Shown here: one piece after another, positions 22,535 to 55,300 of the stretch
How the letters are laid out: the number at the start of each line of letters is the position of its first letter
Position numbering within the stretch: the stretch's first letter is position 1
NCBI RefSeq assembly: GCF_020520425.1
Contig: NC_079491.1
Location: 930,001 to 994,000, forward strand
Origin: Spinacia oleracea
Taxonomy: Eukaryota; Streptophyta; Magnoliopsida; Caryophyllales; Amaranthaceae
Length of the DNA stretch: 64,000 nucleotides
Direction: 5' to 3'
Translations under genes and position numbers: made by a program
Notes under the pieces: generated by a model
The model's input: only the letters and a program-made list of their open reading frames with translations
Database searches by the model: none
Told to the model about the DNA's origin: nothing

Positions 22535-22846
22535 TTAAGATGCTGGAGTAGTAGCTTTGCCATTAGAGAAGTAATTAGCAGTATAGAAACAGATGAAAAC
22601 ACGACCAGTTGCAGCAAGAATCTGTTGTTGCAACAAATCAGCATCCCAATCACAAAGAGCATCAGCTTCACAAATACTCCTAGCCTCTTCAATATCCAGG
22701 AAATCATGTATTTTAGTAGCCGCGTAAGCCAAATCCAACAATGCATATCCCTCGAATGATCTGTTAACCCGAAACTTACTTAACTCGAAACCATTCCTGC
22801 ACATAATCCCATAATCCCTCTCCAACCCATCAAGGCTATGTAACAC
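22535..22846 (-). pseudogene. DEDD exonuclease-like copy A (C-terminal half only)
   Basis: The open minus-strand frame encodes the second half of the array family: SLDGLERDYGIMCRNGFELS, SFEGYALLDLAYAATK, then ADALCDWDADLLQQQILAAT and CFYTANYFSNG. The N-terminal half with motif I is absent upstream, and no ATG opens the frame. It is closest in wording to copy B, which lies head-to-head about 170 bases away. I treat it as a truncated gene. If an upstream exon exists it was not found. Confidence 0.7.
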
Positions 22847-23018
22847 TTCCCAAGTTGTCTATTTTTATCCTATGAACTCATTGGAACCTACTGAATATTA
22901 ATACCAATACCTGTAATATCAATTTCCAAGGCAAATTCTCAGATTTCTCACTATATAACTACTTTGAGCAAAATCTACCTTAAACATCCCAACAAAAACC
23001 TCTCTTAAACAGTTAAAC

Positions 23019-23777
23019 ATGTCAAGTATACACCAAATTCCATTAGGAAAAGTAGTGGTTACAACCAATGTAATCACTACAGAAGAACAACTTGATCAAA
23101 GCTTAAGAGAATTATTATGGCTAACAGCTCAACATGAGGGCTTAAAGCGTATAATAGCACTCGATATCGAGAAACATTACAGTCCTTCCTCAAGCATTGA
23201 AAAGGTCTCTACTGTAATGCTATGTTGTGGAAACTCATGCCTTGTAATACAACTACTCCAAATGGACTCACTTTACGCGTCTTGTTACCTCTCTGAATTC
23301 CTGCAACTACACCAGTTAACATTCGTGGGTTTCAGAATTCATCACTGTCTTGATGGGTTGGAGAGGGATTATGGGATTATGTGCAGGAATTTCTTAGATT
23401 TGAGTCAATTGTCAGGAATGTTGGGGTATAACAATGGAGATGAGTGTTTTGAGGGTTATGATTTGGTTGATTTAGCTTGTAAGGTTGCGAAAATGGAGAG
23501 GTTTATGGAGTTGAAGGTGGCAAGAAGGATCTGTAATGGTGCTGATTTGAGTGATTGGAGTGTTGCTGGTTTGTCTATACGACAGATTGAGGCTGCAACT
23601 TTGAGAGGTTATCTTTGTTTTTATGCAGGGAATTACTTGTTTGATGGGTATTGCAAGCGTTTTAGTTTCTGGGAGAAGAGTTATGATTACTATTTTACTA
23701 TGTCTAGGTGTCAGAAATTTGTGTATTTTCTGACATGCTGGTTTTGGTTTGTTGTTTGTTATGTTTTTATGATCTGA
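23019..23777 (+). CDS. DEDD 3'-5' exonuclease-like protein, copy B (intact, catalytic residues altered)
   Basis: A single-exon frame of 252 residues from a clear ATG. The fold resembles plant Werner-syndrome-like/RNase D-type (DnaQ-like) exonuclease proteins: IIALDIEKHY (motif I, D49 and E51 kept), STVMLCCGNSCLVIQLLQ, LTFVGFRIHHCLDGLERDYG, then NGADLSDWSVAGLSIRQIEA and ATLRGYLCFYAGNY. In active members motif II has Asp where this has C110. Motif III has Tyr and Asp where this has A192 and R196. The tail after about residue 210 is hydrophobic (YFLTCWFWFVVCYVFMI) and may be read-through of an original stop. Probably catalytically dead or altered; nucleic-acid binding is possible. Expression is unproven. 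Confidence 0.7.
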   Translation: MSSIHQIPLGKVVVTTNVITTEEQLDQSLRELLWLTAQHEGLKRIIALDIEKHYSPSSSIEKVSTVMLCCGNSCLVIQLLQMDSLYASCYLSEFLQLHQLTFVGFRIHHCLDGLERDYGIMCRNFLDLSQLSGMLGYNNGDECFEGYDLVDLACKVAKMERFMELKVARRICNGADLSDWSVAGLSIRQIEAATLRGYLCFYAGNYLFDGYCKRFSFWEKSYDYYFTMSRCQKFVYFLTCWFWFVVCYVFMI

Positions 23778-24070
23778 TCAGAATATTTGTTGAGTTTTAG
23801 CAGTTGTGTTTTTATGGCTTATATGACTTGCTATTGATCTCCAGACATGAAGGAGTAAAATCCATTGTAGGACTCGACATAGAAAAAGACTACAATCATA
23901 CTGAGTCTCGCGACAAATTTACAACACAAGTCACTGAAAATATTACTACACTAGTGGTCTGTTCCGGAAAGTTATGCCTAATCATCAGATTATCCAGTAT
24001 GATTGGTTCAAATGCATTTTGTGTTGTATCAAAATTCCTGCAACTTGGTGAGCTAACATTTGTAGGAATC

Positions 24071-24118
24071 ACATCCCCACATTTAATAATAATGACTACA
24101 ATTCATCCAAAAAAAAAA
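24071..24118 (+). mobile_element. 48-bp poly(A)-tailed retro-insert with 15-bp target duplication
   Basis: ACATTTGTAGGAATC occurs at 24056-24070 and again at 24119-24133. The 48 bases between end in about 10 A. This is the signature of a LINE-mobilised insertion truncated to its last few dozen bases. Insert plus duplication is 63 bp, so the host frame stays open. Confidence 0.75.
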
Positions 24119-24307
24119 ACATTTGTAGGAATCAGGATACAGTACTGTATCTCAGCTTTGGAGAAACAGTATGGGTTAAAGTGCAGAAATTCGTTCGAGT
24201 TAAGTCAGTTTCGACTTAAACTTAAAGACCATAGAAAGGTGACGTCATTTGAGGGGTATACATTGGTAGATTTGGCTGTTGAGGCTACTAATATACAACA
24301 ATTCTTG

Positions 24308-24707
24308 CCATATATAGAGCTATCAAAATTTCCATCAATGATCACAGAATAAAGAACCAGCAAATTGTGATAGAATCTGACTCGGTGAATGCAGTCAAGT
24401 GGTGCAACGATGATACAGGAGGGCCATGGAACCTCAACTTCCAACTAAATTTCATCCGTAATGCTAGGAAAAGGTGGCTGCAATTGGTGATCATACATAA
24501 GGGAAGGAGTGCCAACATGGTGGCTGACTCTCTTGCGAAACAAGGGCTAGTAAGAGACGCTGAGTTCATGGCTTGGTTATAATTAAATACTCCTTTGCTT
24601 TCTCAAATAAAATGTAGTCTCAAATGTCATAGCTATTCTGCGATTTTGCAAAATGTACTATGGCTCCCAAACTTTTGAATAAAACTCAACAAATTATCAA
24701 AAAAAAA
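24308..24707 (+). mobile_element. 5'-truncated L1-type LINE (RNase H 3' end)
   Basis: A perfect 17-bp duplication, ATATACAACAATTCTTG, flanks it (24291-24307, 24708-24724). It ends in a poly(A) run. The insert encodes the C-terminal RNase H domain typical of plant L1 elements: IVIESDSVNAVKWCND and GRSANMVADSLAKQGLV, then a stop and a 3' UTR. The perfect duplication and open RNase H frame indicate a recent insertion. Confidence 0.9.
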
Positions 24708-24745
24708 ATATACAACAATTCTTGGACACAAAAAAGAGTAGTGCA

Positions 24746-25847
24746 TAGTTAATTTGTAGAAGGGTTACCCATTTGTTTTAAAAAAAACTCAAAGGTCTTT
24801 GATTAAGGACTATGGACTACATTCATTCACAAGCATGGAACATTAATTGGAACTATGACTATTTTTGGGAAAATGTTCTATTAACCCTCAGGGTTGATAA
24901 CCCTGTGATATGGCAGCTGATGTGTAAGATGATATGGCATTAGTTTCTTAAGAAATAATAAAAAAAAAAATTAAAGCTTTTATTTTTCATCACCCAACAT
25001 TAATGGTCATTGGGAATAATGTTTACATATTTACCTTCTCAATTGGGAATAATGTTCACGTAAATCAAGACAAAAGTCAAACAAGCCTAGAAATCTAGAA
25101 TGGTACGGAGTACTTGAAGCTAATGTTTATTTAAATTGAGTAAAGAGCTTAACAAAACAATACTACGTACTTTGCTCCTTCAAATCAATAAGCCATTGCA
25201 CAATTGAAACTAGAACAACGTTAAATGGATGAAAATTTATGTCAGACAAAAATAACATTTGAATTCTTGTTCCTTTCAAATGGAGGAAAGTGGAGGTTAA
25301 CTAAAAGATGGATAATTGCAAATGTAGAAAGAAATTCGGGTGTTTAGGTTCGGATAAAACCAGATAAGTCACAAAATTTCATTTTTTTCAGGCCATTTCT
25401 GTATTAGGTTTCTGGTCGATAAATTTTTACAAGTCTACCTTATACGGTTATAGTGTTATAGTTTTATGAAGTTATAGACTTAATATTAGGCCTTGTTATT
25501 TTTTTTGTTAATTTCAGTTTCATAGCTTATTTTTTTTAGTTAAGTTCAGTTTACTAGTTTAGGAGCATTCAATTCAATTCAGTTCAGTTAATTTCAATTT
25601 AGTTCAGTTTTAGTTCAGTTAAATTCTGATATTGGGAAATGAGAAAAAATTTAATGTCCCAATGGAAAAGTGTGAGAGATTAAAGGACCTAATGAGTTTG
25701 ATTGGTTAAAATAATGATTTGACACAAATTTTGATAGAATACTAAGTTATTTATGTGATAATATAAAAGGAAATGTAAAGAACATTTTAAAATATCCAAA
25801 AAGAAAAACGTAAAAAACAAAAAGAGACGTAGATTTGGCTTTTAAGT
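24746..25847. other. non-coding spacer within the exonuclease-like array
   Basis: AT-rich, with the partial MITE at 25491 and one TACTCCGTA-type motif (reverse) at 25104-25112. No gene seen. Confidence 0.6.
25491..25636. mobile_element. partial Tourist-like MITE
   Basis: It begins AGGCCTTGTTATTTTTTTTG and contains 'aggagcattcaattcaattc' and repeats of 'agttcagtt', in common with the MITE at 20308-21358. No matching second end found. Confidence 0.5.
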
Positions 25848-26040
25848 CAACTACCATAAGTAATTTACTGGAAATAAAAAAGTGTAAGAGTATTTGTAAT
25901 GGTGATGCTCTTAGTGATTGGGGTGCTGCAACATTATCGAAGGAACAGATTGAAGGTTCAACATGGCGTGGTTTCCTCTGTTTCTATACTGGTAACTACT
26001 TCTGTGATGGCGTTGCCATCCCAACTAATTCAGGAAACAT
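25848..26040 (+). pseudogene. DEDD exonuclease-like copy D (C-terminal fragment)
   Basis: The open frame gives LLEIKKCKSICNGDALSDWG, then AATLSKEQIEGSTWRGFLCF and YTGNYFCDGVAIPTNSG, equivalent to the last third of copy B. There is no upstream half. It may be the severed end of copy C. The motif III position again lacks both Tyr (Gly instead) and Asp (Arg instead). Confidence 0.65.
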
Positions 26041-26095
26041 TGACTGGTCCTCGTCTCTGGTAAAAAAGGCAATTGGACTCCCTCAGGATATAAAG

Positions 26096-26222
26096 CCAAA
26101 AGCCTGTGGGCCTGGGCCCTATTTTGAATTTTCCGACCCGGCACGGTACGGTGTGGGCCCGACACAGTTAGGCTCACATCCCGCGGGCTCAGCCCGAAGC
26201 CCGATCCACGGCAATCTTTATG
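26096..26222. repeat. GGCCCG-rich hAT-like MITE fragment
   Basis: Dense GGGCC, CCCGA and GGCACGG words, ending 'ccacggcaatcttta'. This resembles the terminus 'gcagccatcttta' of the copy at 38753-39040. It sits between copies D and E of the array. Confidence 0.5.
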
Positions 26223-26224
26223 TA

Positions 26225-26608
26225 GTGGTGACTTTTGCATGATCATCCACATCTCAAATATTAATTAGAACACACTCATTTCGTTCTATCACCAATTTCC
26301 TCCAACACCCAGAGTTGAAATTCGTGGGTGTAGGAATCCAGCACTGCCTCGATGCGTTGGGGGAAAGTGGGATTAAATGCAGGAATGCGGTGGATTTACG
26401 CGATTTGGCGGCTACTATGGGGCTAAATCAGGTGGTGAAAACCTACACATTGGTGGATTTGGCTGGTTCAGTTACTCAAGTGTTTGATAAGGATGAGGTG
26501 TTAAGTAAATGTAATGGTTCAGCTCTTTATGATTGGAGTTCTGGTAAATTATCTGTTGAGCAAATTGAAGCTGCTACTTGTATGCTAGGGTTGGCCTTAT
26601 CTCTTTAG
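26225..26608 (+). pseudogene. DEDD exonuclease-like copy E (N-terminus lost)
   Basis: The fragment begins at a degraded SGDFCMIIHISN block with an in-frame stop soon after. It then continues open through LKFVGVGIQHCLDALGESGI, CRNAVDLRDLAATMGLNQ, VVKTYTLVDLAGSVTQ and GKLSVEQIEAAT, to a short divergent end. Motif I is missing. Motif II has Cys. It is nearest in sequence to copy G. Confidence 0.7.
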
Positions 26609-26954
26609 GTGTTTTGGACTTTCGGGTAAGAGACTGAATCTCGTTTACGTAATTATTTAATGAAAAAGTACAAATAAAAAAAGTAAATGCGGGGATGGGT
26701 TGGTACTTGTGTGGAACAAGCAAATTTGCCTATGCATCTCAATATAGTACTCCATCCGTCCCCTATTGTTTGCGTTATTTGAGTTTTTCTGGTTTTCATG
26801 AGACTTCATGCATGATATCAAAAAATTATTAGGTGTTGCTTTAGTTATAAGACATTTTTTCTGACACATTTGAAATGCGAATAGCTGATTTTATTAGCAG
26901 CAGATCGAAATGGTAGACTGCCTACAATTTCATATGAGAGAGTTTAGTTCCCAA
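26609..26954. other. spacer between copies E and F
   Basis: It contains a Stowaway-type end ('gtactccatccgtcccctat' at 26747) followed by about 70 bp ('gttatttgagtttttctggt', 'gacttcatgcatgatatc'). The latter recurs at about 30083-30131, so both are pieces of one MITE family. Confidence 0.5.
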
Positions 26955-27578
26955 TTAACAAGATGAGAAATGTGCAACAAGGCAGCACAAGTAAGCATCA
27001 CGAGTAGCAGCTTCAATTTGTTCTAAAGACAACACAGTAGCACCCCAACTTCCTACAGGTGCTACAGGACCTTTTAGCACGTTCAAAAACTTACCCGGTG
27101 TAAATAGATTCGTCAAATATTGCAAACCAAATGTTTTGAACTTTTCATTGATTAGTTTCTTCTCCTGTTTAACAGTTACAACCAATTCACCCAAATCAAA
27201 AGCATTCCTGCATTGAATCCCATAATCTCTATTCAACGCTTTAAGACAGTTATTCATTTTAACAGCAACAAAGGTCAGCTCTTGTCTTTGGAAGAACTCG
27301 GCCAGTGAACAAAGAGGTTTATTAATCCGCAACAGTTGAATAATCAAGCAAGTGTCGAAGAAACAGAGCTTTACTATAGCAACTTTTTCAGCAAGTTGGT
27401 GTTTGGTATCATCTTGATAATAGTGTCTTTCGATGTCTAATCCTACTATGGACATGTGGTTGTCGCTAGAGCTACGGATTTTTGATAGCAACTCTCCCAA
27501 GCTGTGGTTAAGCTCAATTGTGTTGTAAACTAATGTTGTAGTCACATTACATTCACCCACTAGGAATTGATACTTCAT
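26955..27578 (-). CDS. DEDD 3'-5' exonuclease-like protein, copy F (intact, catalytic residues altered)
   Basis: A single-exon frame of 207 residues from the ATG at 27578 (MKYQFLVGECNVTTTLV). Motif I is kept (MSIVGLDIERHYY; D48, E50). Motif II is LTFVAVKMNNCLKALNRDYG, with C111 in place of the catalytic Asp. Motif III is SLEQIEAATRDAYLCCL: Tyr is replaced by A190 but the Asp (D194) remains, unlike in the other copies. It is more divergent than copies B, E and G and lies on the opposite strand, suggesting an older duplication. The length fits the usual size of these plant proteins (about 200-240). Function is inferred only by fold. Confidence 0.7.
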   Translation of the reverse strand: MKYQFLVGECNVTTTLVYNTIELNHSLGELLSKIRSSSDNHMSIVGLDIERHYYQDDTKHQLAEKVAIVKLCFFDTCLIIQLLRINKPLCSLAEFFQRQELTFVAVKMNNCLKALNRDYGIQCRNAFDLGELVVTVKQEKKLINEKFKTFGLQYLTNLFTPGKFLNVLKGPVAPVGSWGATVLSLEQIEAATRDAYLCCLVAHFSSC

Positions 27579-27865
27579 TGCCGTGTTTGGGATTTGATTA
27601 GTACAAGTGTACAACTATCTGTGACAAAATGTTATATACGAAGTATATATATTTATCCGCAACAGTAGTTGTAAACTGTTGGGTTAATTAGAGAAGTGAA
27701 AGGGTGCAGGAAAAACTTTATGAAATTGACATTACTGATTACTACGAGTAACAAGTACTTGTGCCATGACTTTTCATAATTCTTGCGATTAAAAGACTTT
27801 AAATGGCTGTTAAAAGATGAAAAGACTAGTAGCCAAAATCAATCAATACCTAGTCAATACCTAGT

Positions 27866-28222
27866 ATTAAAAAAGGAAGTTCATGTTTTAATAAATGATA
27901 TATGTGTCATCCCATCTTTCCTCTATTAATTTGTTATTTTTTTCAATTTTTTCTTTTGTTGTTTGTTTCACAAATTATTTTATAGCTTTAATACCACAAT
28001 TCATCTTCCTCAATGAAAATAAATTCATCATTTAATTCACATAACTTTTTCCACCCCCATCTCCCTCCTTAACACTCGATATTGATCCACAATCTAATTT
28101 GTATATTTTTTCAACTTTCAACCCACTGAAATCACAATCCCTCAACAAAATTAACATTTTAAAAGACTACTTAACAACCACTATATAAATTACTTGTTCA
28201 TTAAACGGGCTCAAAAACTAGT
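27866..28222. mobile_element. possible Helitron-like non-autonomous element
   Basis: The left end has 'tcaatacctagtattaaaaaaggaag' type wording, and the right end is 'aaacgggctcaaaaactag' (CTRR-type end followed by T). The interior is AT-rich without genes. The 3' hairpin is not clear, so this is tentative. Confidence 0.3.
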
Positions 28223-28645
28223 TAAAATTAAAAGAGGGTACAATAGCTCGTTATTTTCCATGTGTTTTATATGGCTTGTAAACAAACTTAGCTCATGGAA
28301 ATCTTCCAACTTAATTTGAGTAGAATTGTCTTTCAAACTTCTACAACTTCCTTCATAAAGGCATGATTTTGTAAAGTCGTGCCACAAATTCAAATACAAC
28401 AAACCGTAAACCCCTTGGTTACCTCCTATAAATTCATGGTAACTACCTGAATAGCATCCATAATTAAGATTAAGATTCTAACTCTTGAATTTCCTAGACT
28501 GTTTAGATCCTAATAATGGACCGTTCCCATTCCAAAACTATTCATGCACTTGTCACTCCTTAATAGTTACGGTATAAATAACCACCCATGCGTCACATAT
28601 TCCTTACTCACTGATCAACCAAAGAGTAATTCAAATCTTGTAAAC

Positions 28646-29563
28646 ATGGAATCAAGTTTAAACCACTTTCAAATAGGAGGATTACAGGTTACCACCAAGG
28701 TAATCTCTCACACCAACGAATGTGAGCTCGATCAAACCCTAAAAGATTTGCTATCAACCGCCCAAAACAACGGTGAACCGTATAGTAGGGCTAGACATTG
28801 AGAAACACTACAAGAGTACTAAAAATCATGCCTTCCACCCAGTATCTTTCAACCAACTACTAGCCGTGAAAGAAAAGGTATCTACCTTAATGTTATGTAT
28901 TGGTAACTTTTGCATAATCATCCAAATCTCAAACATGAGTGCCTCCTTATTTCAATCTATGACCAAATTCGTCCAACTCCAAGAGTTAAAGTTCGTTGTT
29001 GTAGGCATGGTTATTAAAATCGCGATTCAAATCATAGAATCTTACGATTCTACGTTTCAAATATGGTCAACGATTCAATTTACGATTCTACACGATTCTA
29101 CACTTTTTCTTGATCACCTCGTAAATTTAAATCATGATGAGAAAGTTATAAATAGATAAATCTCGTTACTTATTGCTTATTTAGTTATTAAATAACTATA
29201 TATTTCAATTATTAAGTTTTTCACCTATAATAGAAGCACTCTAAATGAAATTTGAGAATAAAATCTTGATTATACTTGTTTGTAGAATCTTACGATTCGA
29301 CGATTCAAAGTAGTATCACGATTTTGATAACCTTGGGTGTAGGGATCAAGCACTGCCTCGAAGCGTTGGGGGAAAATGGGGTTAAGTGCAGGAATGCGGT
29401 GGATTTCCGCGATTTGGCAGTTAGTGTGGGACTAAATAAGGTGGTGAAAACCTACACATTGGTGGATTGTGATTTGAGTTGTGGTAATTTATCTGTTGAG
29501 CAAATTGAAGCTGCAACTTGGAGAGCTTACCTTTTGTATGCTAGGGTTGGCCTTATGGCTTAG
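28646..29563 (+). pseudogene. DEDD exonuclease-like copy G (frameshifted and MITE-interrupted)
   Basis: It starts with a good ATG (MESSLNHFQIGGLQVTTKVI) and runs to about 28785, where the frame shifts by one. RIVGLDIEKHYKSTKNH (motif I) and LMLCIGNFCIIIQISNMS follow in the new frame, to LKFVVVG. The MITE at 29009-29332 then splits motif II. After it the copy resumes with LGVGIKHCLEALGENGVKCR, VVKTYTLVD and NLSVEQIEAATWRAYLLYA. A short deletion has removed the region between VD and LSCGNLS compared with copy E. Motif II has Cys; motif III has A and R. Confidence 0.75.
29009..29332. mobile_element. MITE inside exonuclease-like copy G
   Basis: Terminal inverted repeats GGTTATTAAAATCGCGAT...ATCACGATTTTGATAACC enclose about 324 bp rich in 'cgattc' words. 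An imperfect direct repeat of about 14 bp ('..tgtaggcat' / '..tgtagggat') lies on both sides. The length of that repeat would fit a Mutator-like mover, but it also overlaps host sequence, so the superfamily is open. Confidence 0.65.
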
Positions 29564-42516: not shown

Positions 42517-42540
42517 TCAATTAGGGCATACCTTCTCAAG
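42320..42540. repeat. about 77-bp tandem triplication spanning the PPR gene 1 stop codon
   Basis: 'caattagggcatacctt' starts at 42361 (as 'caattagggtgcatacctt'), 42441 and 42518. Each is followed by 'caagcaatacaaaagtattc' and 'tttcacagcttgt' in the two distal copies. The third copy contains the real stop and last codons of the PPR gene. The gene end and its 3' flank were therefore duplicated twice outward. Confidence 0.85.
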
Positions 42541-44945
42541 CAATTCCTTATGCTCAGTTCCAATATTTGCTCCATCTTGCACCAACATCTGACGCAATTC
42601 AGGCGCTGTTTTCCCAGCCGCTGCATAAGTCCGAAGCAATCCCAAGTAGGCACTCGAAAGGAGGGGATGACCTTTCCCTAAAATTTGACAAAATTGTTTA
42701 GCGCTATAAACATCCTTCTCTTCTATAAAATACTCAATAAAAGGATCAAGACTTCCATCAAGTGGCTTCCATTGGTTAGCCATTGCCACTTCCAAATGCC
42801 TAAAAGCAGAATTAATCAGGCGTTTCCTCAAGAAGTAGTACATGAAAGAGACGTGTGCATTCCATACTTTTTTCCCAGATCTTTCTGTAGCATCCTTTAG
42901 CAGCTGTTCAGCCTCCTCAAGCATATCATGCCTCAGGTAAGCACCTATAACAATACTTGGAATCCTGAGATCATAACTCTGGTATTTAGACTTCCACTCC
43001 TCAAAGCAAATTTTCAGCTGCTCAATATTGTCAACCTTTGATAGGGCGTGAAGCATACATATATAGCTTATGTTGTTACAAGCTTTGAATTTTGACTTCA
43101 GTTTACCCCATGCCCGAGTAACAGACTCTAAATCACCAACACTAGCATACAAGCTAATCAGATGATGATACGCTATACGGTCAGGATATATTGCATCTAA
43201 AATTTCCTCTGCCTTTTTCAAAGATGGATGAGCTTTCTGATTCTGACCAGCCTTGATATATGCTGAGGCAAAGTTGGCGTATAATTTCCACTCATCTTTA
43301 ATCGATTCATGTTTTTGAGCCTCGTTCATCACTCGTTCTACACCTTCAAGATCATTACAACACGCATAGCTCTGCATCCATGTTTGATATGAGATACTAC
43401 TTAAAGGAATGTTTCTCCGTTTCATCTCCTCTATAAGAGGAGGCACTTTCTCAGGCTGTTCTACTTTCATATAGAGACACATAAGATTGCTAAAGGCCAC
43501 ATCATTCGATGCATATTTCATCTCATCCATTTTTTCAAAAATAGCCAATGCTTTATCAGTCATCTTATTAGAACAGTAGCAATTTAAAAGAGCTCCATAC
43601 AGGAAGCCTTTTTTCACACCAGGAGGAAGACTATCAAAGAACTTCTCTGCTTCATCAATACCCTTAACTTTACAAAGTATATTCAAGTGTAATCCATGCT
43701 CTGAATGGTCCATTTTACTCTTCTCCATCCATTCCAGAATCTGTATGAAGCAACATCACACAAATCATCAACTCAATTACATCATAAGCGATAAAATTCT
43801 TCTCCAACCATCACAAGCACACATAGACAATCACACAAGCACATATAGGCAATCATAAAAGCACACATAGGCAATCATATAAGCTGTCTACAACAAGAAC
43901 GAACTTGAAGATGTAGCCATACAAATGCTCTAAATAAACCTAGCACATATAGCATCTTTAATGGTTAGCTAAAATATCATTTGTAGCTAGGTTTGCCACG
44001 TCAGTTTTTCAAGCAACAACATTTTTTAGCTACAATATGCTCCAATGGTCAGCAACAACATTTTTCAGCAAGTTGTTTGAGATTTTTTAACTTTTAACTT
44101 TTTTATTTTGCATTGAATACATACATCACATACTAAAAACTAAAACTTTTTTAAATCTTTATTGCCAAGTTAGTTAGCTTGGTAGAGCTAATTTGCTTTG
44201 TCTAGCTAATTTAAGAAAAATGCTCCAATAGTTTAGCTACTTGCTTTAGGAAATTGCAAGCAAGTCCCTAAATTCAACCATTGGAGTTGCTCTAAAAATG
44301 ATAGTCACTAATTAAGTCACCATTCACATATTACAATCCCAACATCAAGTACCTAAAAAAAGGCAGGATCACAAAACCCCCAATACAAAAAAAAAATGGC
44401 AATAAGGGAAGAAACATTAAGCAATAATAATACCAATCAACTAGTGAATTTGTCATGGATTCATACATACTACTTAAAATTACTCAATCAAATTTCATGA
44501 CATTAGGGTTGAGATTATAATCAAACAATAAAAGCCTCAATCTTTAACTTACCCTAGCACCCAATTGAAAATGTAGCAACCCTAAACTACATAAACTATA
44601 AAATCATAGTAAAAATATAAACAAAAATTGAGCGAGCTAAGTTACCTCAAGGCAATTCTGGTAGCGGCGGTACTTACGGAACTTCTTAATGCAAAAAACA
44701 AGATCATCATTATATTTCGTCGATTTATTGCTGTTGTTTCTCGAAAACTGGTCCAAAATGTCGGGAATTTTCTCGCCGGTGGACCAAATAGACGACAATC
44801 TACTGTAAAGAGTATGTTTGTCGAGTTCCCGGGGAACTGCCGGCGGTTTCTCAGACATAGAGGTACAGAGACGCCGGAAAATCTGAGAACTACCGGAAAT
44901 CTGACGGCTGTTTGTGGTTAAGAGCTTGAATTTATGTATCACCAT
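42517..44945 (-). CDS. PPR protein gene 1, At2g20710-like, mitochondrial
   Basis: Two exons on the minus strand: 44646-44945 (100 codons, ending CLE) and 42517-43740 (starting ILEWMEKSKM). They give 507 residues. The N-terminus is Arg/Ser-rich without acidic residues (MVIHKFKLLTTNSRQISGSS), typical of a mitochondrial presequence. The rest is a chain of about ten degenerate P-class PPR helical pairs (FLYGALLNCYCSNKMTDKAL, AFSNLMCLYMKVEQPEKVPP, AYHHLISLYASVGDLESVTR). P-class PPR proteins bind organelle RNA and act in its stability, splicing or translation; the target is unknown. First of three tandem paralogs on this strand. The intron contains a MITE. Confidence 0.88.
43951..44293. mobile_element. 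MITE in the intron of PPR gene 1
   Basis: The left 'agcatctttaatggttagct' and the right 'caaccattggagttgctct' are imperfect inverted ends. The interior repeats 'tgctccaatggt' and 'tagctaattt'. It looks like the common plant 'gagcaactccaatggt' MITE class. Confidence 0.55.
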
Positions 44946-46253
44946 TTCGTGTTGATTTCTTTGGTGATAAACTGGGGTTTTGCCAGGGTTTCCACTAATG
45001 AAGAAAAGACTGGAGTATTGATTGTATTCCAACTTATTTTAACTTACTTAGATAATTTCGAACTTATTTTAACTTATTTAGATAATAAATGCATAACTAA
45101 CTTGAAATCATAATGGCTGAAAAATGTTAGCTTAATAGTGAGGTTACTACTTAAAAAGTAGTGAAAAATTAGCTAAAATTAAGCACTTTAAAAAAAAGAA
45201 GTTAAGTATAATTATTTAATTAGGTTATATATTTTTTTCAAGTATGGTCACGTGACTCTACTTAAACCCCTTGTATATGCCTCTGGTTGGTGGTGAGAGG
45301 TGAGCAAAGACCATCACCATGTAGTCAAGTACCAATGATAGGGGATTTGTACAAAACCAACTGAATCAGCAGAGATCAGAGGATCTATACAAACTCGAGT
45401 TGGAAGAAAAATTTGACTTTAAAAATTAGCTAAAAATGAAATATCTCTTCATTCAAAAAGAAGGGGTTTGAGCGATTTTAATAGCTAAGTAGGAGTTTCT
45501 CTTAATTTGATCGTTGCGTGAAATTATAATAAAATAGGAAATCAGTTCATGTACAAAAGGTAATTCAATGACAACAACTCACTAATCTATCAAAGGTTCG
45601 GTTCGTTTTTTAGAAGATAATTTCTCATATACTCCATTAATCAAGTCGTGTTAGTTGTTATTGTAGATTACGGTCAATTTCTCGGATCTGATCACTTTCT
45701 AGTTTCTAACAGTTGTGTAGAAGTGTAGAACATCATAAGTTAGAAGTTAGAAGTTACTAGAAGTTAGAAGTCAAGTTAGGCATAATAAGCTAAAAATAAA
45801 TATGTGTACTGTTGGGCCTTCATGCAAAACATGGGCTACAGAGAAATGGATTTACATTATGTGTGAATAAACTTTTGGGCCCATAAGGGCCTCAGTCAGA
45901 GGCCTGAACTTTATGCAACTAGGTTAAAGATAATTGCAACATAAATACTTCGTACATAATTATCAAATTACGATTGACCATTCCACCTCACCATTTTGAC
46001 CTTGGGGATCAAGTTTCTAGTTTAGCCAACTCCATATAAATCAAGGATTTGACCTAGAAACTATTCTCTACCTAAATTGGTAACATTGTGGAGAAAATGG
46101 TTAATTCGAGAGGGATACCAAAAGCGTATAATCACTCGTCTGTTAAATATGGGTAGCTTTGTCAAATTATATTAACATTTCGGAAAAAATAAGTGTATTA
46201 ACGTTTATTACTCCGTACTACACTAGGGGTTAGTGACTTGTCAGTCACAAAAC
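44946..46253. other. intergenic, upstream of PPR gene 1
   Basis: AT-rich, with direct repeats 'aacttattttaacttactta' / 'aacttattttaacttattta' at about 45030-45080 and 'tagaagttagaagt' near 45740. No gene seen. Confidence 0.6.
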
Positions 46254-46511
46254 ATAATGGCAAATAAGGGAGTGTTAATAGACTCTCATGTACTAGTTTC
46301 CTACACCGATGCCATCCAAGACACCATCACAGTCAATATCCACTACCGTGACCTCCGTGAAGGCGCCATTGCCGAGAAGGCGATGACATTCACGGATACG
46401 GCCCGTGGGTTCTTCCCAAAGTACGATGGGCCGGAGTTCCGGGTCGAGTCTCCCCTTACATGGAAGAAGATAGAAGGGTGGTTGTTACTTGTATCACATG
46501 GGAGTAGATAG
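46254..46511 (+). CDS. small hypothetical protein (85 aa)
   Basis: A single frame from ATG (MANKGVLIDSHVLVSYTDAI), with DTITVNIHYRDLREGAIAEK, then TFTDTARGFFPKYDGPEFRV. Codon use looks gene-like and it has more G+C than its flanks. After the stop an overlapping frame (46489-46713) also looks coding (SILKCSYYQVHDSASLSLDV), so a frameshifted longer protein of about 150 residues is possible. No family recognised. Downstream sequence has AATGAA-type signals. Could be a real small gene or a recently broken one. Confidence 0.4.
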   Translation: MMANKGVLIDSHVLVSYTDAIQDTITVNIHYRDLREGAIAEKAMTFTDTARGFFPKYDGPEFRVESPLTWKKIEGWLLLVSHGSR

Positions 46512-46713
46512 TTGTTCCCATGCTTATGTCATTGATAGTATTCTCAAGTGTTCTTACTACCAAGTACATGACTCTGCTTCCCTCTCCTTGGACGTCCACC
46601 TCGAAATCTCCGATGAATGCTCAAATGTTCCGAAGCAGTCGCGTCTTCATCCGAGGGAAGACGATTTGGAGGACAATGTGTGTATTTTAGCATGCAAGAA
46701 ATGTTGTTTTTAG

Positions 46714-47194
46714 GTGTTTGTATGAGTAGTTATTTCTAAGATGCAAAATGTTTAGTGTACTTGGTTAATTGTATAATTAGTGATTGTACTTGGTTAATGA
46801 AATCAAAATATCATAAGACTTCTCATTGAAGGTGACAATCTGCTCATCATCTACGCCACAAAGGAACTTGGGTTGTTCCATGGAAATTGCATAATATAAT
46901 TACAGACATCAAAGCTCTCTCCTACACTTCGAAGTTCGAACACTGAGAAATCAAGCATATCTACAAAGAAACAAATATAGCTGCAGACTAGATTGCAAAC
47001 GTCTAACACCTTGATTAACAATAACACCTTGGTATCAGGTGAATGTTTTCTGTAAGTGTTTTTAGCTTTTTCTGGTATGGTCTGGTCTAATAAGCAATCA
47101 AAATAAGGTGAAGAACATCGCCTAAATCAAAGGTACTGCAAAATAAAGCATTTCCCCCGATAAAAGGATGTCAAGACTCAAGAGCATTGCACAC
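46714..47194. other. spacer before PPR gene 2
   Basis: No gene or recognisable repeat seen. It probably contains the 3' UTRs of both neighbours, which converge here. Confidence 0.5.
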
Positions 47195-50100
47195 CTAGCA
47201 TATCTTCTGGAGTAACTCTTCATGCTCAGTACTAATATCTACACCACTTTCCTCCATCCTTTGACGCATCTTCGGGGCTGTTTGACCTGCAACTGCATAA
47301 ATCTGAAGCAACCACGAGTAGGTCCGCGAGTCAAGAGGCTGAACTTCCTCTATCTTTCGGCATAGTTCTTCAGCACCTTTAACATCCTTCTTTTCTTTGA
47401 AATGTTCAAAGAAAGGATCAAGCTTTTCTGACAATGGCTTCCATTTACCAGCTAATGCTGCTTCCATATGCTTCAAAGCAGAAGCAAGTTGATGTTTCTC
47501 CAAGTAGTAGTTCAGGAAAATGATATGAGCAATCCTCACTTTCAATTCAGCCATTTCTTCAGCTTTTTGCAACAGCTTTTTAGCCTCTTCAACCATTTCA
47601 TTCCTCAGAAAAGCACCTATTAAAACAGCTGGTAGTCTGTCATCATAGCTTATGCAACTCAACTCCCATTCCTCTAACAGCTTTTTGAGACCTTCAATAT
47701 CATCTAACGTTGACAAAGCTCGAAGCATTATAAGGTAGCTCATGTTCGGACAAACACTGAATTTTGACTTCAGTTTCTGCCATACCTGATAAACAGACTC
47801 TGAATCACCAATACTAGCATACATTGAAATCAGAATATGGTATGCTTTTCTGTCAGCTTTTTTAGGTTTATCAAACAGTTCTTCCACCTTTTTCAAGGCA
47901 ACATTAGCTTTTTCAGATTGACCAGCCTCAATATAAACTGCAGCAAGGTTGCTATATATTTGCCAATCTTCTTTTACAGAGTTTTGTTCTTCAACCTCTT
48001 GCATAACTCGTTCAACACCCTCAAGATTGTTAAGATATCTATGACTCTGAATCCAGATATAGTATATATGGTTGTGTAATGGTATGTTTCTCTTCTTCAT
48101 CTCTTCTACAAGAGAAGTCACCTTTTCTGGTGTGCCTGTTTTCATATAAAGACTCATGAGATTACTGAAGGCCAGATCATTGGACGTGTACTTCAGTTCA
48201 TCCATCTTCTCGAAAAGAGCCAATGCTTTATCCGTCATCATTTTAGTACAGTAGCAACTTAGAAGTGCTCCATATGTATATTTGTTCTTGGCTTCAGAAG
48301 GAATGCTGTCAAAGTAGTTCTCAACATCACTGATTTCCTTAACTTTACCTATTATGTTTATACGTAATGCATAGTCTGTATCAGAATTGCCGAATTTACC
48401 TTTGTTCATCCAATCAAGTATCTGCAAAAAGAAAAGTATATTCAACACAAAAAGAACAGCATCAAGAGTAGCAATTTGAAGCTAGAAGAGAGAGAACTGA
48501 ATGCAAAAACAACATTGTACTGGAGTTAAAAATTCTTATCTACTTCAAGAAAAGAAAACTAATCTACAAGTACTTCATAAATTATCAAGAATCAAATCAT
48601 CTCAAACAGAAAATCTATCCCTAATTCATTCGGAGTATGAATTGAAATATTTTGACAAGAAAATCAAAAGGAACGGAGCAGCACTGCAGCAGTTCTTCTA
48701 AAGTACAGAGGAAGAACTAAGAAGAGAAGGGGAGACAGAAAATAATGGTGATTTGGGTTTATTATCATGGATTTCCTTTTTACAAAATGGTTAGTTCTTT
48801 AAATGACTGTTATAACAGAATCACCAATCATATTTCGAAACTTGGATTAATGACTACCTTTACAAATCTACCATGGGATTCTACAAAAAAACTTTCAGCA
48901 ACCAGACTCCACAGTAGGCAGAGATCCATCAACGTCCGTAGGAATATGGATTTGTATTTTGGTCTTCTCCAGAAGGATTTATGATCATTAATCGTCTGAT
49001 TATATAATTAGGAAGTTCGAGGTCTCAAATTTCAGAACCAAAAGTGAAAACTATACAGTAATAAGTGAGGCCATGATCGGCCATGAGATAGGAATTTGAT
49101 TGATTTCTCTGTCAAAACCATTTAAGAGCTATTTATAGAAGGAGCAAGCCCAAAACAGCACATAAAGAAAGGGATACAATAGGAGGAAGGGGAGGGTAAA
49201 CAAAGGGAGGGAGGGAGGGAAAAAGTAAGCTCCATTTTGCCTCCTAATGATATAGTAAGCAGTATATTGACAATATCTTGAGCTGGTTGGGAAATCAGAA
49301 AAGGAACTCTGACAACTGTTCAATTGCTTTTGTGGTGCAAACAGAAATTCAAGGGATCTCAATTCAGGAAAAGGGTTCTTTCCTCTGCTCTAGATGCGGT
49401 TACATGCAAGATATGGCAAATCTAGGAAAAATGCTTTGTGGAACTCCTCTGTTTTCAGTGCAGGAAAAGTTGTAATTTGTAAAAGACGTCAAGTTTGATG
49501 TAAAAAATGGAGTTAAAAATGTAAACAAAAAGAAAATCAGTAGTGTAGATCAAAGTTGGTTTGATAATCTGTAAAGTTAGAGGTCATTTTTAGGCTTTGC
49601 GACCTAAGCCGTTTAGGTTCCCTTTAGGGTTTAGGGGACTCCTTCCTAGGGAAGGTTTGCCCCCCCTTAGAAAATTTAGGATGTATTGATTTTTGGTGTG
49701 AATACAATATTTTACTTACCAACAAAAAAAAAAGACAAAGTGTAAGACCTAATGCATGCTAAAGAGAAGCTGGGAGAAAAATTCCTTCCTACTCCGTATA
49801 ATATAGAGGATCACAAGGACAAAAGTGCAGCTAAACATAAATCGTCAAAGAACACACATTTTACAAGCTATCTTTCGAGAATGAACAATAGTGGGTAAGA
49901 TTGGACATTGTAGAAAGAGGGCTGAATAAAAAGCTTTTAATACTTGCCTTCCAAGACAAAGATAGATCTAAACTTGTTTCATAATCATGGGAAATAAAAC
50001 CAAGTTATATGCCCCCCTGCAATCGAGAAATCCATCACTTACATTACTCAAGCAATCCCTAGTTAATCCAACATAAATTTGTGTTCCTCATGAGAAATCT

Positions 50101-51445
50101 TAACACATCATGCTAATCACTGAAGATTCACAAGTTTCAAAATGGTGTTTTTATGATAAGATAGATGATTTTGGATCATCATATTTTTCCAACCCAAGTT
50201 CATTGAACCGTTTTGAGCCTTCCTATGCTAAAACCATTACATTTATGTCAAAATCTATCCATATTCATCTAACACATATAATCTATTACTCCATAGATAA
50301 AGAAAAGATAATCCAACTGCCATTTATCTTCAGGAAACCCTACCTCGACTTAGTTATACACTAGTTTGTTCAGCACTGTAAATATGTAATAGGATCCTCT
50401 CCCCTTTTTCCCCTCCGTTTCCTATCTTCAAATTATGACATCTACACTAACAAAAAACTAAAATTCGGAAAAAGCCCCGCATTTCCCTCTTCATGCATTC
50501 ATAATCTTCAATCTAAGAAATGATCATCCATATATTTGGGAATCCACCAAGGTTAAAGTTCTAGTTTATTCAAGGTTCATAGTAAAATCGGCCACTAGTT
50601 TGCCTCCTTGGTGATGTTTGGTTGACATTCTAATTCATTTCCTAGGAAGTCAAAAGTAAAAGGTTGTATGATTGACATGAGCATGGAAAGTGAAATTGGG
50701 AGGAAGTTGCTTACCTTGAGAATTCTACCTTTCTATGCTCAACCAAACAGGAATACACAATTCCTAGGAAGTTAAAATACATGGGAAATATAACTTCCCA
50801 AGTGCAACCAAACATCACCTTAGAGTGTAAAGCATTACAATTTGCAATTACACCATTTTGAGTAGCAAGTAGCAACCATCAATTGGACAACAGAAAAATT
50901 GTACACAGTTTATTCATACTAGTTCACAGGAAAAAAGAAAAATCAAAATAAATGTCACTGAAAAATGCAAACTTCAATCATTCAATCATACTATTATCCC
51001 CATTTCCCAATTTCCCAAATACACATTTCAGGATATTGCAAAATAAAATCTGGGCAGAAACCAAAAATCAAACTTTTTGCATAATTTTTCCCCAAAAAAG
51101 AAATGAAGCAAAAACAAAGTAGCTAACCTCAAGGCATTGATGGTAATGGCCAGACTTACGGAGATCTTTAAGGCAAGAAAGAAGATCAGTCCTCTTGACA
51201 TGCTCCCCATTATGCAATATCCTGTATAAAACGGCTGAAACCTTCTCCCCTGTATTCACTACCGCCCATATTTGCTTACGCAGAAGTTGTTTGTCGATTA
51301 TACGGCGGCTTTCCGACGGGTTTTCATACGGAACTAGCGGTGTGGCGGTGGAGAGTCGCCGGAGTAGTTGAGATTCTCCGGCGATGAGACGGATGGTGAC
51401 TCTTATGAGGTTCATTTTGTGTTTCAGTGATTGAATTTGGAACAT
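47195..51445 (-). CDS. PPR protein gene 2, At2g20710-like, mitochondrial
   Basis: Exons 51128-51445 and 47195-48421 are separated by a 2.7-kb intron. Starting at MFQIQSLKHKMNL the protein has 514 residues; the next Met (51415) would give 504. Basic presequence (MNLIRVTIRLIAGESQLLRR). The PPR array includes YTYGALLSCYCTKMMTDKAL, AFSNLMSLYMKTGTPEKVTS, QIYSNLAAVYIEAGQSEKAN and AYHILISMYASIGDSESVYQ. It ends STEHEELLQKIC. Very close to gene 3 and less so to gene 1. The exon boundary (CLE|ILDWM) is the same in all three genes, confirming descent by tandem duplication. The intron contains the MITE at 50610. Confidence 0.85.
50610..50819. mobile_element. Tourist-like MITE in the intron of PPR gene 2
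   Basis: The ends GGTGATGTTTGGTTG...CAACCAAACATCACC are inverted. Inside, 'atttcctaggaagt' and 'aacttccca' match the copy at 14978-15269. The 3-bp target site is not preserved. Confidence 0.7.
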
Positions 51446-51583
51446 GGTGTTGTTAGTTTGGTGGTGCTGGGGTTTATCAAGGGTTTTTCTAATTGGGGGT
51501 GTTATGGACATTTCACGATAGTCAAGTACCATCTAGTCAATCTTTGTTTGACCTAGGAAGTTAAAACTATTTGATCAATTGAT

Positions 51584-51707
51584 TTTTATTTTTATTTTTT
51601 GTGAACAAAGCCATAAAAAGCAAGGAATAAATGATATAGACGAGATTCGATCTCAAGTCTGGGTACCACCTCTCAAGACTTTTATCAACTAAGCTAGTTG
51701 ACATTCA
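51584..51707 (-). mobile_element. tRNA-derived SINE, copy 1 (minus)
   Basis: Read on minus: A-box-like TTAGTTGATAAAAGTC and B-box-like GAGATCGAATCTC, then a tail rich in A. Flanking 16-mers (51568-51583 and 51708-51723) match at 14 positions. Same family as the copy at 52053. Confidence 0.75.
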
Positions 51708-52052
51708 TATTTGACCATTTGATATTAGTATATGTTTTCAAATTTACTACAAAAATGTCACTTTCACTAACTAAATTTGTCAATCATCGAGATCAATTAG
51801 CAACTTCTCTTCGACAGACCTAATGTTCCGATGGGTGTTTTAAATCTCATAACCTCGAGGTTTTAAAGGACATGTATATGCCCTAACTAGTAGCCTACTA
51901 GGTCAAACTAAATAAGTACTACATGGTCCATAATTAAAATCTTACGAAATAAGAATATATTTAGTATTCGACTTAGTCGACTATACATAGTTTGTGATTG
52001 GTATTACGAGTTTGAGAATACTAAATACCTGACTATACTAATCAACAAATTT

Positions 52053-52171
52053 GTGGATATCAATTAACTTAGTTGATAAAGTCTTGAGCGGTGATACCCA
52101 AGACCTGGGATCGAATTCCGTCTACATTATTTGTCGCCTTGCTCTTAGTGGCTCACTTTACACCCAAAAAA
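52053..52171 (+). mobile_element. tRNA-derived SINE, copy 2 (plus)
   Basis: A-box-like TTAGTTGATAAAGTC and B-box-like GGGATCGAATTCC; ends 'cacccaaaaaaa'. Flanked by ACTAATCAACAAATTT (52037-52052) and ACTAATCAACGAATTT (52172-52187), one mismatch. About 119 bp. Confidence 0.85.
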
Positions 52172-52304
52172 ACTAATCAACGAATTTCAATAATCTACTT
52201 CTCTCACACAAATCTAAATTGTCCATAACAAAGGGGTAGTTGTGGGAATTTTCACAAGATTAAATTTCCCAAAACATATACTCCTAAAAATAAAACAAAA
52301 AATG

Positions 52305-55300
52305 TCAAGTACTCAAGCATATCTTCTGGAGCAACTCCTCATGCTCAGTACTAATATCTACACCACTTTTCTCCATCCTTTGACGCATTTCCGGGGCGGT
52401 TTTACCAGCATCTGCATAAGTCTGAAGCAACCACAAGTAGCCCTTCGAGTTAAGAACCCGAACTTTCTCTAATTTTCTGCATAATTCTTCAGCACTGTCA
52501 ACATCCTTTTCTACTTTGAAATGTTCAAAAAAAGGATCAAGCTTTTCTGTTAATGGCTTCCATTTTGCAGCCATTGCAGCTTCCAAATGCTCCAAAGCAG
52601 AATCAAATTGATGTTTCCCCAAAAAGTAGTTCATGAAAACAACGTGGGGCGACCTTATTGGCCGTTCAGCTTTACCTTTAGCATGTTTCAGCAGGTGTTC
52701 AGCCTCTTCAACCATGTCATGTTTCAGGTAAGCACTCATCGCAACAGCCGGTAGCCTGTCATCATAGATTTTACAGCTCATCTCCCACTCTTCTAGAAGC
52801 TTCTTGAGGCCTTCAATATCATCTAGAGTTGACAGTGCTCGAAGCATAGAAAGGTAGCTTACGTTCTGACAAATTTCGAATTTTGACTTCAGTTTCTGCC
52901 ATGTCAGATAAACAGATTCTGAATCACCAGTACTAGCATGCATAGAAATCAGATAATGATATGCTTTTCTGTCAGCATTTTTAGGGTTGTCAAAAAGTTC
53001 CTCTGTCTTTTTTAAGGCATCACGAGCTTTCTCAGACTCACCAGCTTCAATATAAACTGCAGCAAGGTTGCTGTATATTTGCCAATCTTCTTCAACAGTT
53101 TTGTGTTCTTGAATCTCTTTCACCAATTGTTCAACACTTTCAAGGTTGAAGACATGTCTATAGCTCTGAATCCAGCTGTAGTAAATCGGGTTGGTTAGTG
53201 GGATGCTTCTCTGCTTCATCTCTTCTACAAGCAACGGCACCTTCTCTGTTTCACCTACTTTGGTATATAAACTCATGAGACTGTTGTAGGCGAAACAATT
53301 AGACACGTAATTCAGTTCATCCATCTTTTTGAAAAGTGCCAATGCTTTATCCTTCATCATTTTAGTACAGTAGCAATTTAGAAGTACTCCATATACAGAA
53401 TCGTTCTTGAGTTCTAGAGGAATGGTGTCAAAGTATTTTTCAACATCATCAATGCTTCTAACTTTGCACATTAGATTTAATCGCAATGCATAGTCTGCAG
53501 CTGAATAGCTATGTTTACCTTTATCCATCCAATCAAGTATCTGCAACAATAAAAGATAGGATACAAGTGCCTGAAATTAGAAATGCGGTCACTCAAAAGC
53601 ATCTATCCATATATCTCTACCTATATTATTAGTACAGAGTACTATACTTAGAGCATGTTTGGTATAGAATTTTTAAGTGATGGAAATGGAATCAATTCCA
53701 TTACCTAATGTTTGGTATGAGAGGAGTGGTAACACAATGGGAAATAAACCAAGTTATATGCCCCCATGCATTCTATACAGTCCTTTGATCAAATGGGAAA
53801 AAAATGAAGCCTAACTCATGTAAATGTAAAGCTGTTTGCTTTAATTTAATATAAAGGTTCAGATGCATATAAAGATGCATATAAGTTGCTGAATAAGCTC
53901 GGTAATATTCAACACTCACAGGTAACATCAAGGTGTCAGCAGGCAGACCGGCAGAGCATGAAAATCAAGCTCCAACCAGTACTTGTGATTTACGAGCTAG
54001 CACGAACGCAAATTTGGAAAGTGGAAACATATCGGTCAAAAATTGTAAATGAGGATTTTGTGAACTGTACATACATTTGCCTAAGTTATGTATCGAAAAT
54101 ACTACTTTGTGCCCCCTATTTCCACCAACTAACCAACCAAACACTAAACACCTACAAAGGAGCATTAAATCATATTTCACAAACAAGTTGGTTTCTCAGT
54201 CATTTTGGACAGCAGAAATTAGGGATGTTTTATCAACTTGGTTCGTTTATATGATTGATTTCAGTTAATTAACCATATCGCACCTCCAGTTCTTTCCTTT
54301 AAGCCCTTCTATTCGAAGATAAACAAAGAGTGTTCAACATACATAGCTAAAATCCATGACGCAAAGCTGTCGAGCTTCCAAAAAGAACAGGATGTTTTAG
54401 GACACTACATTCTCCCTTATTTCCCCCGAAAGCATGAGAATACTACACCAGTAAAAAGTCATCAGTCTATCAATTCATAGTTGATCCAACAAAAACAAAA
54501 GTCTCAATTGATGAGCCTAATGACGAAGCTTAAGACAATGCTGAGGACTAAAGATTCACAAGTTTCAGAACAAACTTCTAGCTTTTTATGCTATAGTATA
54601 ACCGTATAAGCCTTCGAAGTATTATACTGCAAATTCTTCTCTCCTATGCCAAAGCCATACATTTATGCCAAAATGACGAATCCCCATTCTCATTACTTTA
54701 ACAAACAAAATTTACAAGATTAGAACCATTAATCCCCTTCCCTGTTAGTTGTTCCCTGGTTTGTTCCTCAGAATGCAGTATTTTCTACATTAGCCATGCA
54801 AATATGAACTAGGATTCGCTCTATTTCATTTTCTCCACTTCCTATCTTAAAATTACAACACCTAAGCTAACAACAACAACAACAACAAATTCCCGGAATA
54901 TCCCCTTTTGTGCATTCACAATCCTTAATTCAAGAACTAAACCATCCATTTCGGGGTCCAAACTCCGCAAATACACCAATATATGAGTATCAACGAGGTT
55001 AAACGTCAAGTGACTTGTGACCAAATTGGATACAAGTCACATGTCAGTACCAATAACGCAAATGACGCGTATTGGTACTCCTTAGCAGTGTATTGGTAAC
55101 CAATACCACAAGTCACTTTTGACGTATACTTCCTTGAGTGTCAACCATAGTAAAATTGGCCACTAGTCTGTGTCTTATAGTCTAGTATATGCTTCATTAA
55201 GCATTGCAAATACCCTTTCTTAGCAACAACATCAATAGCTTAGTCAATTCACACACAAAAGTAAATGCTAACTAGCTTAGTTAATTAGAGTCTCAAGGTG

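Follow-up and report, generated by a model that had tools for sequence, protein, structure and literature searches.

In the window (the whole 64,000-nucleotide stretch of spinach DNA that was analysed), seven gene copies with the DEDD exonuclease fold, A to G, lie at positions 22535-29563 on both strands. An earlier note on this DNA had described seven such copies within 7 kb, and both the listing of open reading frames and tblastn confirm them. As that note also said, two copies in the window are complete and open. Copy B (23019..23777, plus strand) encodes 252 amino acids and has a hydrophobic tail at its C-terminus, and copy F (26955..27578, minus strand) encodes 207 amino acids. Only the C-terminal half is left of copy A (22535..22858, minus strand), and copy C (23801..24352, plus strand) is truncated at both ends, lacks motif III, and has an in-frame insertion ahead of motif II. 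Copy D (25814..26016, plus strand, end approximate) is a C-terminal part; copy E (26255..26608, plus strand, start approximate) lacks the N-terminal half and has an altered C-terminus. Copy G is split beside motif II by a MITE-like inverted-repeat insertion of 324 bp (29009..29332, assigned to no strand, with its ends placed by eye), which has 184 matching ends in the genome. The first part of G (28646..29008, plus strand) has the start codon, motif I, and a frame change upstream of the insertion; motifs II and III are in the second part (29333..29563, plus strand).

A genome search found four further copies, H1 to H4, at C5:764849-771728. This is about 180 kb upstream of the window copies, so the family forms two clusters on the same chromosome. 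H1 and H4 are open, and H2 and H3 are broken. Overall, B, F, H1, and H4 have open frames, and the remaining seven copies (A, C, D, E, G, H2, and H3) are truncated, frame-shifted, or split.

The earlier note had compared the array to Werner-like and RNase D-like exonucleases. The DnaQ/DEDD fold family holds, but the nearest solved structures are Arabidopsis RICE1 and RICE2, with WRN after them. (The RICE enzyme takes part in gene silencing by clearing away RNA debris.) When we compared a profile of six copies to 177635 PDB sequences, which include few plant DEDD proteins, the best matches were RICE1 (7.7e-12) and RICE2 (1.2e-10), and then WRN (5.3e-8); our family comparison covers the PDB and this genome. 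In a search with the exonuclease family PF01612 (cut-off 23.6 bits), F was recognized (29.3 bits) but B was just under the cut-off (20.7, E 0.0004). Taken singly, the frames of A, C, D, and E and the two frames of G were not recognized in this search. Outside the window, H1 (32.4 bits), H4 (37.6), and H2 (26.8) were above the cut-off. In the reverse direction, searching the genome with RICE1 gave H2 as the best match (30% identity, 4.5e-7) and H1 as the second (1.3e-4). A WRN-like sequence, L003, came third (0.001), before H4 (0.0016); F reached only 0.22, and B was not among the matches listed. With an 86-residue piece of RICE2, the four best matches in the genome were H2, H1, F, and H4 (3.4e-4 to 0.0145).

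Phylogenetic trees also put the array copies and RICE together, both with 16 rows (support 90/91) and with 12 rows (93/93). Because the support is under the tool's mark of 95/80, and because the RICE1/2 branch in the 16-row tree is very long (2.78), the placement of RICE1 and RICE2 may be an artefact. Structure predictions for F and B, from the window sequences only, had mean pLDDT of 39.7 and 46.3. The two best chains that Foldseek found for the poor model of B were RICE1 (5v5f) and RICE2 (1vk0), at a TM-score of about 0.35 and an rmsd of about 15 Å, which supports the relationship weakly. The models are too poor to read where the residue at position 114 lies relative to the metal site.

We then read the active-site residues from a profile alignment of the copies with RICE1, RICE2, and WRN. 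(We use the RICE1 residue numbering.) The DxE of motif I is kept in B, C, F, and G, as had been claimed, and Asp52 and Glu54 are retained in all eight copies that reach them, counting both clusters. In motif II, the earlier note reported cysteine in every copy that spans it. This is correct for B, C, E, F, and G, but copy A also reaches the site and has serine there. All of H1 to H4 have the cysteine, so position 114 is cysteine in 9 of 10 copies. The seven other WRN-like sequences that we compared all have aspartate. The alignment places the cysteine on Asp114 of RICE1 and on the motif II aspartate of WRN, which agrees with the claim that it sits at a catalytic position.

The tyrosine of motif III is replaced, as described, by alanine in A, B, E, F, and G and by glycine in D; among all nine copies that reach position 183, seven have alanine and H4 has serine. 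The replacement cannot be read as a catalytic loss specific to the array, because RICE1 has Ala183 and is nevertheless an active ribonuclease (PMC5451212). The last acid of motif III is arginine in A, B, D, and G and methionine in E. It is retained as aspartate in F, which thus keeps three of the four acids; across the open copies this position is Arg, Asp, His, or Gly. Glu187 is found in none of nine copies. So the full set of DEDD acids with the motif III tyrosine, as in Werner-like DEDDy exonucleases, is absent from the copies, and just Asp52 (8/8) is left of the RICE active-site set (D52, Y54, D114, E187). The array shares the fold family, the Pfam family (PF01612), and the DxE of motif I with WRN and the seven WRN-like sequences of this genome, but differs from them in having cysteine for the motif II aspartate, mostly alanine for the motif III tyrosine, and mostly no final aspartate.

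Three cysteines of copy B (Cys69, Cys74, and Cys110) are invariant in the six-copy alignment, and Cys110 corresponds to position 114. We considered whether other cysteines co-vary with Cys114. The first two lie in an LC...C stretch that is mostly common to WRN-like sequences, and Cys126 also occurs in two WRN-like sequences that have Asp114 (L002 and L082), so we do not claim co-variation. A contact between Cys114 and position 126 of a neighboring subunit is doubtful, because neighbors along a strand would face opposite sides and because other members have isoleucine, valine, or leucine at 126.

RICE1 forms a hexameric ring, and none of its salt bridges (R47-D166, K102-D52/D114, K119-E113, and R127-D114) is intact in B, F, H1, or H4. 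Arg127 is the sole salt-bridge residue that is kept throughout (9 of 9 copies that reach it, and all four open copies). Among the open copies, Arg47 is found in B only, and none retains Lys102, Asp166, or the pair Glu113-Lys119. B and H1 have His113 together with Glu119 or Asp119. In RICE1, the D114A mutation disturbs the hexamer, and the protein is unstable in plants (PMC5451212).

The array proteins thus resemble RICE1 (At3g11770; 5v5f) and RICE2/AtDECP (At5g06450; 1vk0 and 2q3s), their best PDB matches in sequence and in fold. All are small single-domain DnaQ-like proteins with Asp52, Arg127, and mostly Ala183. They differ in that the array has Glu54 for Tyr54, Cys114 for Asp114, no Glu187, and no salt-bridge pairs. 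Also, the identity is about 30%, and the array is a tandem family with many broken copies.

A relative of copy F has been spread by a transposon. The stretch of F at 26892..27547 (minus strand) matches a segment of a Mutator-like element at about 87-89% identity over 656 bases (39 places listed besides F), and the match is present in all 60 element loci that we fetched. The element has terminal inverted repeats (TIRs) of about 283 bp at 95%, with both ends in 54 of the 60 loci, and a 9-bp target duplication with at most one mismatch in 52. With long TIRs, 9-bp target duplications, and a captured segment of a host gene, these dispersed copies resemble Pack-MULEs, and are unusual only in their passenger, a RICE-like gene with a common stop codon. 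The same stop is found in 59 of the 60 captured copies. The exception, L070, is the earliest branch when 59 copies are placed in a tree with F as root (L067 was omitted for its length), so the common stop may have arisen after capture. By eye, we had suspected a GRF-type zinc finger in the other internal part of the element, but Pfam found nothing there.

F is probably not the direct recent donor: it differs from the captured copies by about 10%, while they differ among themselves by about 2%, and the changes that separate them look constrained. For these reasons, the gene that was captured by the element and multiplied as its passenger is more likely to have been a sister copy of F than F itself. 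Among the best-scoring candidates listed in our genome searches, no locus was closer to the captured copies than F.

The captured copies allow us to estimate selection on F. Compared to 46 of them, F has a median dS of 0.260, dN of 0.059, and dN/dS of 0.23 (per-copy Fisher tests: median p 3.9e-7, at most 4.3e-5), so the F lineage has been constrained. About 26 nonsynonymous and 28 synonymous differences separate F from the median captured copy, as against 109 and 41 variants among the captured copies (p 0.0015, with per-copy medians entered for F). This indicates a constrained split and a later, more nearly neutral spread. The captured copies are also not perfectly neutral (N:S of 2.7 versus a neutral 3.6; pooled dN/dS 0.63). 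When the differences were polarised, the medians were about 6 synonymous and 7 nonsynonymous on the F branch, 6 and 8 on the captured branch, and 25.5 unplaced. Because these counts are small and most differences are unplaced, the constraint since the split can be assigned only to F and the donor taken together. The earlier note had named a dN/dS near 1 with no expression as a result that would refute its reading; F does not show such a ratio, and for B there are only saturated comparisons. The ratios between paralogs (0.15 for B-H2 at dS 1.8; 0.34 for H4-H3 at dS 0.67) are rough, because dS exceeds 1 in 18 of the 19 computable pairs (2 of 21 pairs gave no value).

We place middling confidence in the following reading of these sequences: that these are diverged tandem genes allied to the RICE (DECP) clade, whose metal site has been dismantled, and whose proteins probably bind RNA or a silencing complex, with little or no nuclease activity. 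With Asp52, Glu54, and Cys114 in the active center, Ala or Ser as residue 183, and the last position varying, the site would not bind the normal pair of metal ions in the ordinary manner. If so, the proteins most likely keep surfaces that bind RNA or Argonaute, and their exonuclease activity would be weak or absent. Expressed in Arabidopsis, catalytically dead RICE1 tunes how cleaved RNA fragments are cleared, and the family would act likewise. (Such dead variants still bind AGO10, by data that the authors did not show, and lower miRNA levels; PMC5451212.) Of the earlier note's interpretation, the fold family, the change from Asp to Cys shared by diverged copies, and constraint, in the case of F, are supported. 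The broken DEDD set is not in itself proof of a non-nuclease role, because RICE1 is active without a canonical DEDD set and EDTA has no effect on it (PMC5451212).

RICE1 itself departs from DEDD (D52, Y54, D114, E187) and shows no metal (PMC5451212). This, together with the retention of Asp52 and Arg127 in every copy that reaches them, gives some plausibility to the idea that these are active, metal-independent RICE-type exoribonucleases with a site altered still further, doing the ordinary RICE job in the plant, with Cys114 and Arg127 taking over the role of Asp114. But we think that this is rather unlikely, as Glu187 is missing, as are Lys102, Asp166, and the Glu113-Lys119 pair in the open copies (the His113 pairs of B and H1 soften this point), and as the array has lost Asp114, which matters for the ring and the stability of RICE1 (PMC5451212). 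Somewhat less likely still is that the array is decaying, that the cysteine was fixed in a single founder, and that B, F, H1, and H4 are the last open copies on the way to loss. In favor of decay, 7 of 11 copies are broken, G is split by a transposable element, and B may have lost its stop codon and acquired its hydrophobic tail. Against it are the low dN/dS of F relative to the captured copies, which differs from the pattern among those copies, and the retention of motif I and the cysteine although pairwise dS is mostly above 1.

Alignments of DEDD proteins may slip by one turn of a helix, which would allow a canonical WRN-like family with its motif II acid elsewhere in the helix and an incidental cysteine. 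We consider this very improbable: the motif II aspartates of RICE1, RICE2, and WRN align with the cysteine with no gap nearby, positions 112-113 of the aligned copies, just before it, have no acid, and the last acid of motif III is gone from most copies. It is conceivable, though we give it little weight, that Cys114 is functional and that a thiol-based contact replaces the one between Asp114 and Arg127 of the adjacent subunit in the ring. The result would be an RNA-processing site that is metal-free or uses a thiol-bound metal, or else a redox-dependent ring, in what are apparently the plant's only RICE-clade genes.

The captured copies serve as an outgroup, internal to this genome, against which selection on the gene can be measured. 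Loss of Asp114 disturbs the ring of Arabidopsis RICE1 (PMC5451212). Provided that they are expressed, the open copies would be natural changes at this same position, and would test whether evolution needs the acid and the ring, and whether the clearing step of RNA silencing can be carried out in a plant by a family without the classical nuclease residues.

The seven gene copies with a DEDD-exonuclease fold (A-G, window 22535-29563, both strands) lie where the earlier note placed them, as judged from an open reading frame listing and a search of the 894-Mb genome, in which the window is C5:930001-994000. Copies B (252 amino acids) and F (207 amino acids) have complete open frames; A, C, D, and E are truncated. 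A 324-bp inverted-repeat element (29009-29332, boundaries judged by eye) splits G, which also changes frame; genome-wide, the pattern at the element's ends is present 96+88 times, versus 0+1 times for the reversed pattern. F is above the cut-off of the exonuclease family PF01612, and B is slightly below it. (The last 20 or so residues of B, at window 23715-23777, are hydrophobic and may form a tail anchor or reflect translation past a lost stop codon. By eye, the open frame adjoining copy C, at 24292-24582, resembles a retroelement's RNase H region, and similar pentatricopeptide-repeat-like open frames lie in tandem on the minus strand at 42517-53576.)

Searching the genome with the first 218 residues of B identified a sister cluster of four copies (H1-H4) about 180 kb upstream (C5:764849-771728). 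H1 (305 amino acids) and H4 (225 amino acids) have open frames, H2 loses its frame near the C-terminus (the missing end is present in another frame), and H3 is truncated. H1, H2, and H4 are above the PF01612 cut-off, and smaller relics lie near C5:752 kb. A tree pairs B with H2 (support 99/98).

We then asked which exonucleases these proteins resemble. A profile built from B, F, and H1-H4, searched against 177635 PDB sequences, matched the Arabidopsis DnaQ-like proteins RICE1 (7.7e-12) and then RICE2 (1.2e-10), followed by WRN and a WRN homolog (5.3e-8 to 3.3e-5) and EXD2 (0.001). In the reverse direction, RICE1 residues 14-198 (taken from the profile-search output) matched H2 (4.5e-7) and H1 (1.3e-4) best in the genome, followed by the WRN-like locus L003 (0.0011), H4 (0.0016), and the WRN-like loci L004 (0.0018) and L002 (0.021); F reached only 0.22, and B was absent among the matches listed. 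The four best matches to an 86-residue piece of RICE2 were H2, H1, F, and H4. No RICE gene closer than the cluster was seen in these genome searches, in which split genes are matched exon by exon. Trees of 16 and 12 sequences both put the cluster and RICE together (90/91 and 93/93), with a very long RICE branch in the former; this grouping of sequences is suggestive, not settled.

We compared the residues of the active site (positions are in RICE1 numbering). Asp52 and Glu54 are present in 8 of 8 copies. The earlier note described a shared Asp-to-Cys change in motif II, and position 114 is indeed Cys in B, C, E, F, G, and H1-H4, but it is Ser in A. It is Asp in all seven other WRN-like sequences compared: L078, from the search with B, and six of the 19 Pfam matches (L002, L003, L004, L080, L081, and L082). 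(Cluster or transposon copies make up six of the other Pfam matches, and the remaining seven lie outside the alignment.) Two of these sequences, L080 (C3:14455600-14456250) and L081 (C3:14491950-14492600), have the reverse pattern: they retain the motif II Asp, and Gly-Val-Gln replaces Asp-x-Glu in motif I. The motif III Tyr is replaced as described, mostly by Ala (7 of 9 copies at position 183, with Ser in H4 and Gly in D), but this is not specific to the array: RICE1, an active ssRNA exonuclease, also carries Ala183 (PMC5451212). Position 187 is Arg in A, B, D, G, and H2, His in H1, Gly in H4, Met in E, and Asp in F, so F retains three of the four acids.

About 60 further matches are dispersed across six large contigs, with 33-44% protein identity to B and, in 39 listed places, 87-89% DNA identity to F. 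We fetched 60 such loci (24 from the protein search with B and 36 added; at least two more listed places exist). In each, a captured segment corresponding to window 26892-27547, which takes in most of F and some of its 3' flanking sequence, sits inside a roughly 1.93-kb element that has inverted repeats of about 283 bp (for example, L024 638-2568; the 59 others are among L013-L077). Both element ends are present in 54 of 60 loci, and a 9-bp target duplication, with one mismatch allowed, is seen in 52, as is typical of Mutator-like elements. A stop codon at F residue 94 is common to 59 copies. In the remaining copy, L070, this codon is a sense codon; L070 branches earliest in a tree of the captured copies and may mark an earlier stage of capture. 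The Cys codon is retained in 59 of 60 copies, which is little informative because the copies diverge by about 2%. The 22-base end of the inverted repeat occurs 546+554 = 1100 times in the genome, so it seems that a small minority of this element family carries the RICE segment. A 2019 survey gives 167 MULE-MuDR elements in spinach (PMC6337768).

The captured copies serve as an internal outgroup for F. Against the 46 of 60 whose full-length frame is unbroken except for stops, F has a median dS of 0.260 and dN of 0.059, for a ratio of 0.23 (range 0.18-0.38; Fisher p ≤ 4.3e-5). Variants among these copies are 109 nonsynonymous to 41 synonymous (2.7, with 3.6 as neutral; pooled dN/dS 0.63), whereas F differs from the median copy by about 26 to 28 (p = 0.0015). 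This contrast implies that the lineages separating F from the donor were constrained and that the transposon copies are evolving under weaker constraint. The ratio for F is thus not near 1, the value that the earlier note associated with decay. Polarising on H3/H4 gives small counts: about 6 synonymous and 7 nonsynonymous changes on the F branch and about 6 and 8 on the captured branch, with 25.5 differences unplaced. Among paralogs, 19 of 21 pairs gave dN/dS values, from 0.15 to 0.68, with dS > 1 in 18 of the 19; the highest ratio, 0.68, is for the broken copy C versus H4.

What might these proteins do? RICE1 is reported to be active with no bound metal and to be unaffected by EDTA (PMC5451212). 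The array proteins, above all F, may instead remain metal-free nucleases. RICE1 shares Asp52 with the array and has Tyr54, Asp114, Glu187, and Lys102; the array has Glu54, mostly Cys114, and no Glu187, and Lys102 is replaced in B (His), F (Gln), H1 (Asn), and H4 (Gln). Because of these residues, the array's site differs from those of WRN and RICE1 alike. In RICE1, Asp114 bonds with two residues of the adjacent subunit, Lys102 and Arg127, and the D114A protein, which is unstable in plants, exists as a mixture of monomers, dimers, and hexamers (PMC5451212). Arg127 is kept in all nine array and sister copies that reach it. Structure models of F and B were too poor to show where the Cys lies.

Titles and abstract openings of open-licence papers on WRN-like families, At5g06450, DnaQ-like/DECP proteins, RICE, and spinach Pack-MULEs or gene capture (best matches only for some topics) contained no report of the array, its Cys, or its transposon passenger. 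The fold and motif I are kept and the F lineage is constrained, but the DEDD site and the contacts of the RICE1 ring are both incomplete. The simplest reading is that these would be RICE-related proteins that still handle RNA 3' ends or Argonaute, and cut poorly or not at all. Catalytically dead RICE1 in Arabidopsis, which has an effect without catalysis (PMC5451212), is the precedent.
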